From contig JAJYDK010000009.1 of NCBI GenBank assembly GCA_021777555.1, positions 1 through 64,000 on the forward strand: a stretch of DNA of 64,000 bases, written 5' to 3'. The position numbers and the translations under genes are program-made. Under the pieces are notes generated by a model. The model saw only the letters and a list, made by a program, of their open reading frames with translations. It was not told the origin of the DNA and did no database searches. Positions within the stretch are counted from its first letter, which is position 1. The number at the start of each line of letters is the position of its first letter. This document shows positions 56,106 to 57,800 of this stretch, one piece after another. Source of the stretch: Pseudomonadota bacterium. Its GTDB lineage: Bacteria > Pseudomonadota > Gammaproteobacteria > Steroidobacterales > Steroidobacteraceae.

Positions 56106-57800
56106 TCAGGTCTTGGGCAGCGTCACGCCCCGCTGCCCTTGGTACTTGCCGCCCCGGTCCCTGTAGGAGGTCGCGCACACCTCGTCCGACTCGAAGAACA
56201 GCATCTGCGCCACGCCCTCGTTGGCGTAGATCTTCGCCGGGAGCGGCGTGGTGTTGGAGAACTCCAGCGTGACGTGCCCCTCCCATTCCGGCTCCAAGGG
56301 CGTCACGTTCACGATGATGCCGCAATTGCGGACGAAGACACCTGCCTCGAGTGCGAAATTGCCAGCCTCCGGAACCGTCAAACAATAGACGTCGTGCTCG
56401 CCGGGCAACTCTCTGATCGCAGCGACCTTGTGATTTCGGTAGGCAGGAGTGCCTCGAAAGCCCGCAAGCACTTGTGGGAATCGGCGGAAAACCGAACGGT
56501 CGCAGTGCAGCAGCGCCGCCGCGCCACGGATGGAGCCCGTTTCGTCGAGCGCAGAACGCGCGCGGTCCGCAGTGATTTCATCCCGCAATTTGATCCGCCG
56601 CGCGATCTCGGCCTGCCTTTGTCGCCGCGTCCCATCGTCAGCGGCCCATGCGCGCATCATTCGCTGTGCGTGCCTTTCCCGCTCGGCCGGATCCGCGAAT
56701 CTCCTGAACATCGCGCCGCGATGAGCCTCTCGTGTGACATCACTCTGATTTCGCCGAGCCTCCATGAGGCGTGCGCGGACAGCGGCGTACCGCTCACTGC
56801 CCCAGAAGGCATAGGCGCGCGCGCTCTGCACTGCCGCAAAGTGCGCTCGCCACTCGGGGTTCAGCGCACGGCGCGCGAGCGCATCGCGGATGGCGGCGCC
56901 GTGCTCCTCTGGACTGAACGCTTCTCCGTAGTTCGCCTCGTTATGCAGCCTAATGTGATCGGACGCCGCCATCCTGATCAGGTTCGTCGGCCGATTGTTG
57001 CGGCGATTAAAAACCATGTGATGCCGATGGGTACCGGAAGTGTCCGAATAAATGGCGTGTCTCAGATTCCATTCATCGGCAAGGCGATGCGTCGCATGCA
57101 TGTACCCGTCGATCGGCTGATACACCGTCTCGTAGCCCCTGACGAGGTCGCGGTAGAGGGGCATCAGCGCGTCGCCCGGACGGAGTGTCTGAGCTTCGGC
57201 CATCCGGCCATCGCGGCGCATGAACTGGTGATCCGCCGTGGCATGGATGCGCCGCCCATCGTCCAGCTCGATCTCGAGCAGCGAGTCACGCCCGATATAT
57301 CGGGGCACATCGAGCAGGGACACGATCAACCGACCATTCGGCCCGATGCTGTAGCCCCAAAAGAGTTCGCCGGAATCGTGGCGGCGCGCCATTTCCTCTA
57401 GCGTCGGCGCGGTGCCGTCCACCAACGCCACACGCGTGTCTCCGCGGAAACACCTCGCATAGGTCGACTTGCCGAGACAGACAGTGAGCACGCTGCGTGG
57501 AATCCGGAAGTACTCCACGGTGCGCGCCAGCGCAAAGGAATTCGGTGGAATCACGCATACATCTGACTTGAGATCCACGAAACTCTTCTCGTCGAAAGCC
57601 TTCGGATCGACGATGGTGGAGTTGATGTTGGTGAAGATCTTGAATTCATCCGCACAGCGGACGTCGTAACCGTAGCTCGACGTACCGTAGGAGACGATCT
57701 TGTGGCCATCGACGTAGCGAACCTGCTCGGCCGCGAACGGCTCGATCATACCGTGATCGCGCGCCATACGACGGATCCAGTGGTCTGATTTGATGCTCAT
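56106..57800 (-). CDS. dcd: dCTP deaminase interrupted by an in-frame HNH intein
   Basis: Dcd deaminates dCTP to dUTP for thymidylate synthesis. The N-extein (residues 1-116) runs from [20 protein letters not shown] to LGKSTYAR, and the C-extein (493-564) from [20 protein letters not shown], with the catalytic Glu in TLEFSN, to the end. Joined, they give a normal 188-residue enzyme. Between them is a 376-residue intein (separate entry). It is inserted directly after the catalytic Arg of GKSTYAR (equivalent to Arg115 of E. coli Dcd, in RSSLAR), so the unspliced protein should be inactive. TATCAT ends six bases before the ATG and no Shine-Dalgarno site is seen. The open frame continues 27 codons upstream but is not conserved. 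mrp lies upstream. Confidence 0.95.
56325..57452 (-). mobile_element. HNH-endonuclease intein within dCTP deaminase
   Basis: Precursor residues 117-492 form a Hint domain with an inserted nuclease. Block A is CFRGDTRV (Cys117), block B is TADH (Thr188-His191), block F is [15 protein letters not shown] and block G is GVFVRN (Asn492), followed by the +1 Cys of the extein. The penultimate residue is Arg491 instead of the usual His, and the block F Asp is replaced by Cys. The HNH nuclease is at about 255-290 ([17 protein letters not shown] and DHIRLH). A helical region follows at about 395-450, with a helix-turn-helix-like [20 protein letters not shown] that may help recognise the homing site. 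The DNA looks less GC-rich than the exteins. All elements for splicing and homing appear intact. Confidence 0.93.

Follow-up and report, generated by a model that had tools for sequence, protein, structure and literature searches.

An HNH-type intein in the dCTP deaminase gene and its alleles across one bacterial family

The insert in dcd and its host protein

A stretch of 64,000 nt from a bacterium of the family Steroidobacteraceae (GenBank assembly GCA_021777555.1, contig JAJYDK010000009.1, positions 1 to 64,000; here called the window) carries a dCTP deaminase gene (dcd) that is interrupted in its catalytic loop by an intein. The insert is confirmed as a real intein, and we read it as a class-1-type cis-splicing element with an HNH part that is a present or recent homing endonuclease, having descended mostly vertically with repeated decay of its nuclease; for this explanation as a whole, we estimate a probability of about 0.93. 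Both the site and the kind of intein are already known, and the window holds an ordinary member; the new value comes from its relatives, with their series of alleles and their two-site arrangement.

For the window's own protein, we infer splicing and DNA cutting along the following lines. After translation, the intein would be excised by its Cys1, Asn492 and Cys493 (+1) through an acyl shift, a branched intermediate and cyclization of the Asn. The products would be a free intein of 43 kDa and a dCTP deaminase of 21 kDa, the catalytic loop of which would be whole only once ligated. The HNH part, now or recently, would carry the element to dcd alleles in which this site is empty. Within the family, the intein would be inherited mostly vertically while the endonuclease repeatedly decays and some lineages have an empty site, with selection on dcd maintaining splicing throughout.

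The precursor gene occupies 56106–57800 on the minus strand (as do all features described below) and encodes 564 residues including the intein, with no internal stop from 57800 to 56106. It is assigned from its translation, from TIGR02274 (E 3e-40; the exteins reach 137.8 bits, with a cut-off of 92.8) and from the solved dCTP deaminase 4dhk, which covers both flanks end to end (E 1.2e-101) in two matches that join at Arg-Cys. By this alignment and the translation, the N-extein (residues 1–116; 57453–57800) ends in GKSTYAR and the C-extein (residues 493–564; 56109–56324) starts with CGIIVN, its Cys being the +1 residue. The in-frame insert, residues 117–492, thus sits between flanks that together form an intact host protein, as they do in the empty alleles of relatives. 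The split falls in the conserved active-site loop, as the preliminary description of this DNA had it; judging from the Escherichia coli enzyme, the insertion presumably separates the catalytic Arg and Ser, in one extein, from the catalytic Glu, in the other. The masses computed from the sequence, 21.2 kDa for ligated Dcd and 43.0 kDa for the intein, lie close to the roughly 21 and 42 kDa given there.

The intein itself (376 residues, C117–N492; 56325–57452) is recognized by PF14890 when scanned alone (E 6.5e-14) and by relatives inserted at this site. Two models, Pfam Intein_splicing (E 1.9e-13) and NCBIfam intein_Nterm (4e-8), exceed their cut-offs, and intein_Cterm reaches 15.7 bits where 15.6 are required. 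The block names used here are the customary ones for the Hint part. The N-terminal Hint part (intein residues 1–110; 57123–57452), with TADH as block B, is delimited by alignment and by the predicted local distance difference test scores (pLDDT) of a structure model. It is followed by the HNH region (residues 111–181; 56910–57122), placed by alignment and a motif table, with its motif at 56937–57029 ending in DHIRLHN, and by an endonuclease helical tail (residues 182–339; 56436–56909), seen in the alignment, in the helices of the model and in its whole or partial deletion from short alleles. Alignment, model and motif table also place the C-terminal Hint part (residues 340–376; 56325–56435), which has GVFVRN as block G. 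The class 1 residues are all present: C117 as the position 1 nucleophile, the terminal N492 and C493 at +1, alongside the TxxH of block B and a predicted Hint fold (pLDDT 67–94 per ten-residue block over intein residues 1–100); the Foldseek and VIA matches listed for the model are Hint-type proteins. The first description, of a complete intein that has both Hint blocks and an HNH region, is therefore borne out by Pfam and NCBIfam matches and by alignment to relatives. In block F, Cys357 (56382–56384) is a Cys in all 41 alleles tabulated; the block F consensus has Asp where these alleles have Cys.

The preliminary description had left open that the site might be unreported, which it is not. An earlier paper describes an intein that interrupts gp069, the dCTP deaminase of cyanophage vB_AphaS-CL131 (L067; L numbers denote loci and G numbers genomes, as labelled in our analysis), for which expression in E. 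coli gave a band on sodium dodecyl sulfate–polyacrylamide gel electrophoresis sized as the joined exteins (PMC6293099). This intein shares with ours the host protein, the insertion point (GKSTYAR^CGII; its junctions read GKSTYAR / CGIIAN), the order of Hint, HNH and tail, and a 72-residue C-extein. It differs in being in a phage gene, in its 30.4% identity over the intein, in its length (352 residues by our reading), in an intact HHKD and in a penultimate Lys. The same excerpt, citing MacGregor 2013, mentions ‘intron-containing’ dCTP deaminases in two bacteria, one each from the Proteobacteria and the Chloroflexi, which resemble the present case, by that description, as intein-bearing bacterial dCTP deaminases. 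Our literature search on dCTP deaminase inteins recognized no further report beyond CL131 and these two bacteria; two candidates were set aside, as their excerpts concern a terminase intein (PMC7412058) and DNA polymerase inteins (PMC5371798). Among named models, the best over the whole insert is that of the RtcB-family inteins (NCBIfam NF052663, E 5.5e-34), which matches 12 of 12 aligned members; it belongs to another host protein, and its 118 bits, against 1050, fall far under the whole-protein cut-off.

Nuclease decay and a conserved splicing core

All 32 alleles of the family, including that of the window, were read. None has a stop, and Cys1, the TxxH of block B, HDV(Y/F)CL of block F and the terminal Asn occur in every one. 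Their lengths diverge: six have 375–376 residues, and the other 26 have 190–307. In the short alleles the helical tail is wholly or partly deleted; L020 and L114 retain the HNH motif and have lost much of the tail, L019, L021, L071 and L074 retain damaged HNH regions, and in the shortest alleles almost nothing is left of HNH or tail. Among the long alleles, L070, L111, L112 and L113 keep all eight tabulated motif positions, L018 has Ser for one motif Asn, and the window has Val for a conserved Asp. Outside the family set, the full motif is found in nine of nine alleles tabulated, a count that leaves out L003 (frame break), L007, L011, L014, L015 and L016, the contigs of which match those of family loci in length, as well as L010 and L013, the inteins of which are identical to those of L114 and L075, and that includes L002, a locus without an established family.

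Nei-Gojobori ratios of non-synonymous to synonymous substitution (omega, dN/dS) between the window and L018 are 0.04 for the N-terminal Hint part, 0.07 for HNH, 0.13 for the tail and 0.05 for the C-terminal Hint part. In pairs among L018, L019 and L021, they are 0.70–1.60 for HNH, 0.62–1.84 for the tail and 0.10–0.45 for Hint. Judged by these substitution patterns, purifying selection acts on the splicing core.

In the window, the nuclease part gave no Pfam match at E values up to 1 and is recognized by alignment to relatives, five of twelve aligned members having an HNH_3 match; of the two profile checks suggested at the outset, that for Hint was positive and that for HNH was not. Its motif reads HHMV instead of HHxD, with Val147 of the intein at 57012–57014, a change seen in the window alone among 19 motif-bearing alleles. 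With the motif residues taken in their usual roles, one non-conservative change makes an active homing nuclease doubtful for this allele; ‘full-length HNH’, as first described, holds for its length and is doubtful for its activity. It is an even bet that the intein is competent in splicing with an HNH already inactive in the window's genome, which would make it an immobile passenger just entering the decay known from its relatives. The missing HNH_3 match, the internal endonuclease deletions in 26 of 32 family alleles, and the full-length relative L018, with its replaced motif Asn and the high HNH and tail ratios of its trio, all fit such a passenger. However, no replacement is seen at the remaining seven positions of the motif table (His, His, Asn, Asn, Asn, His, His), and HNH dN/dS of the window versus L018, L070 and L113 is still 0.07–0.13, so that most of the history of this HNH was constrained.

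Several observations weigh against the explanation of a splicing intein with a present or recent homing nuclease. Block G of the window ends in Arg-Asn, where His-Asn is usual; the penultimate His is kept in 19 of 32 family alleles and missing from 13, including the window. This His is usual in inteins, not universal, and as it is not a defining residue, membership among the inteins stands. The conserved Asp of HHxD is found in 17 of the 19 alleles carrying the HRHH/IHHKD motif, the exceptions being the window (Val) and L115 (Gly, in a motif interrupted by a deletion). The structure model of the HNH part, with pLDDT of about 30–56 per block, is too poor for conclusions, and the window and L018 differ at a proportion of synonymous sites (pS) of about 0.6, near saturation, so their dN/dS ratios are rough. 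Lastly, locus L003, from a Burkholderiaceae metagenome-assembled genome, has a frame break inside the C-terminal Hint block F, through either sequencing error or real decay; the similar L012 is intact. Such Hint-block disruption in relatives, named in the preliminary description as a sign against splicing, is thus present at one of 16 loci and absent from all 32 family alleles.

It is very improbable that dcd has become a pseudogene, with an insert that no longer splices and a Dcd that is dead or replaced. The atypical penultimate residue would agree with this, as would the finding that 11 of 36 same-genus genomes, several of them incomplete, give no Dcd match, for the gene may be dispensable. 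Against it stand the open frame and intact exteins, an extein dN/dS of 0.01 between the window and L018, the lack of a match to a ComEB-type dCMP deaminase in the window's genome, and the CL131 relative, which is excised despite its own atypical penultimate Lys.

Distribution and descent

A search of genome contigs gave 15 loci, among them records from Burkholderiales, Methylobacter, Planctomycetota, Fimbriiglobus and Chloroflexaceae, and in every one the insert follows STYAR of dcd. Because many genomes have the insert at this very codon, an assembly artefact or chance is ruled out. IMG/VR added one locus, L017, where a contig classified as viral carries a dcd whose HNH intein has 317 residues. 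Among phage records there were 11 matches, and in three of them, from CL131 and from two SP-15 records, coverage of the query was 80% or higher; of these three, CL131 alone is annotated as dCTP deaminase. In Bacillus phage SP-15 (L068, 3001–4131) the whole-intein match, at 24.8% identity, lies in a hypothetical protein not annotated as dcd. The plasmid search gave one partial match, located in gyrB.

Within the lineage of the window, the intein was found in one of 398 genomes of the phylum sample (the window's own), in 19 of 296 of the order (its own included, all within the family) and in 32 of 217 of the family, again including its own. The 36 relatives in the genus comprise 11 with the intein, 11 in which dcd runs through the site uninterrupted (complete in 10 and seen from residue 50 onward in one), three with fragments short of the site and 11 without a Dcd match; intein-plus and intein-minus alleles thus occur at the one site, as was anticipated. 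The genomes without a Dcd match are G032, G036 and nine others; for two of the 11 the listed completeness is 97%, and several are incomplete. Four genomes of the genus (G005, G019, G021 and G025) have weak intein matches alone, that in G005 lying in a DnaB-like helicase by our reading.

A tree of Dcd DNA was built from 79 rows. Of these, 29 carry this intein alone, three carry both this and a further intein upstream, 12 carry the upstream intein only and 35 are empty, the latter being 30 hand-picked family members and five from the outgroup, of which one was misplaced to the wrong side. The tree requires at least 18 changes of state of this intein, and for rows with this intein alone 10 changes are forced by well-supported branches; gains and losses are indistinguishable by this count. 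The intein label is clustered (4 of 500 shuffles were as low), and Dcd and Hint DNA distances are correlated (Mantel r 0.73, 0 of 2000 permutations as high, n = 32). In a test for transfer within the family, the intein distance was equal to or below the Dcd distance in 0 of 496 pairs, a weak test because the intein evolves faster than Dcd. From this tree and these distances, we read the history of the intein as largely one of vertical inheritance, in which the nuclease decayed repeatedly and the element was lost or regained more than once. The nearest relative of the window, G022, has an empty site and is 89.7% and 92.5% identical over the compared stretches. Between the two, DNA identity per 100 bp is 0.85–0.98 throughout the comparison, and the site shows no co-conversion dip, which leaves the idea that the window gained its intein recently by homing unsupported; transfer from an unsampled donor is possible.

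Possible dependence on splicing and a second insertion site

The genome of the window (97.4% complete) contains one full dcd and, by our reading, one ordinary dUTPase. A third TIGR02274 match (E 2.9e-7), considered as a second dcd, reads as a dUTPase, recognized by eye and not by profile. The ComEB dCMP deaminase model has no match in this genome, while it matches 8 of 14 control genomes. With one full dcd and no ComEB match, the earlier suggestion that dUTP supply depends on splicing is plausible, and unspliced precursor would probably cut that supply, within a survey of routes to dUTP that covered dcd, dUTPase and ComEB. The absence of a Dcd match from part of the genus means, in turn, that Dcd may be replaceable. 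An intein kept because its splicing regulates dUTP and dTTP supply, for example through oxidation of Cys1, Cys357 and Cys+1, is quite unlikely. A pathway likely to be splicing-dependent, the persistence of 26 of 32 family alleles without a full endonuclease, the purifying selection on the splicing core and the redox-sensitive intein known in mycobacterial DnaB (PMC6195587) would suit such a role. That selection is expected regardless if Dcd is needed, however, and the 11 same-genus genomes with an empty site speak against an essential regulatory role.

Of the 217 family genomes, 15 have a further Dcd intein, of 370–411 residues, at a point five codons upstream (LGK^STYAR); the one that was scanned matches Intein_splicing (9.4e-23) and LAGLIDADG_3 (1.7e-19). 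It occurs alone in 12 genomes (L082–L084, L086–L091 and L093–L095). Three genomes from three genus groups have both inteins: G001 (L085 / L028), G680 (L092 / L074) and G693 (L013 / L081 / L075). In these, a LAGLIDADG-type and an HNH-type intein, or its remnant, are separated by an extein of five residues, STYAR. Given 15 and 32 carriers among 217 genomes, about two double genomes are expected by chance, so three are not unusual. None of the 398 phylum genomes matched the upstream intein, an empty answer that, without a positive control, shows nothing. Weaker matches to it (27–52% identity) occur in other long family frames, with L029 being a DnaB-like helicase by our reading.

Haloarchaeal MCM inteins (PMC10643990) are similar in having neighboring insertion sites in one gene, full and mini-inteins, and frequent gain and loss; they differ in their LAGLIDADG nucleases and in tree conflicts that reflect interspecies transfer, whereas distances of dcd intein and host mostly agree. 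Neither this excerpt nor that on DnaB is about Dcd. We consider it unlikely that the catalytic loop of Dcd in this family is a two-site hotspot for unrelated HNH and LAGLIDADG homing nucleases, 15 bp apart, where both coexist in some lineages, STYAR must survive two splicings, and nuclease-free inteins persist because splicing gates dUTP and dTTP supply.

Of the inteins previously known at this site of dcd, one phage example has reported excision, and bacteria are mentioned in passing in the excerpt that describes it. In the present family, a single site is found empty or filled with inteins that have a full HNH, have a damaged HNH, are partly deleted or are minimal, at 190–200 residues, and a second intein lies five codons away. 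A series this dense makes the homing cycle of invasion, decay and loss directly testable in one bacterial family; it also supplies naturally shortened inteins and permits a test of splicing as a gate on nucleotide supply.
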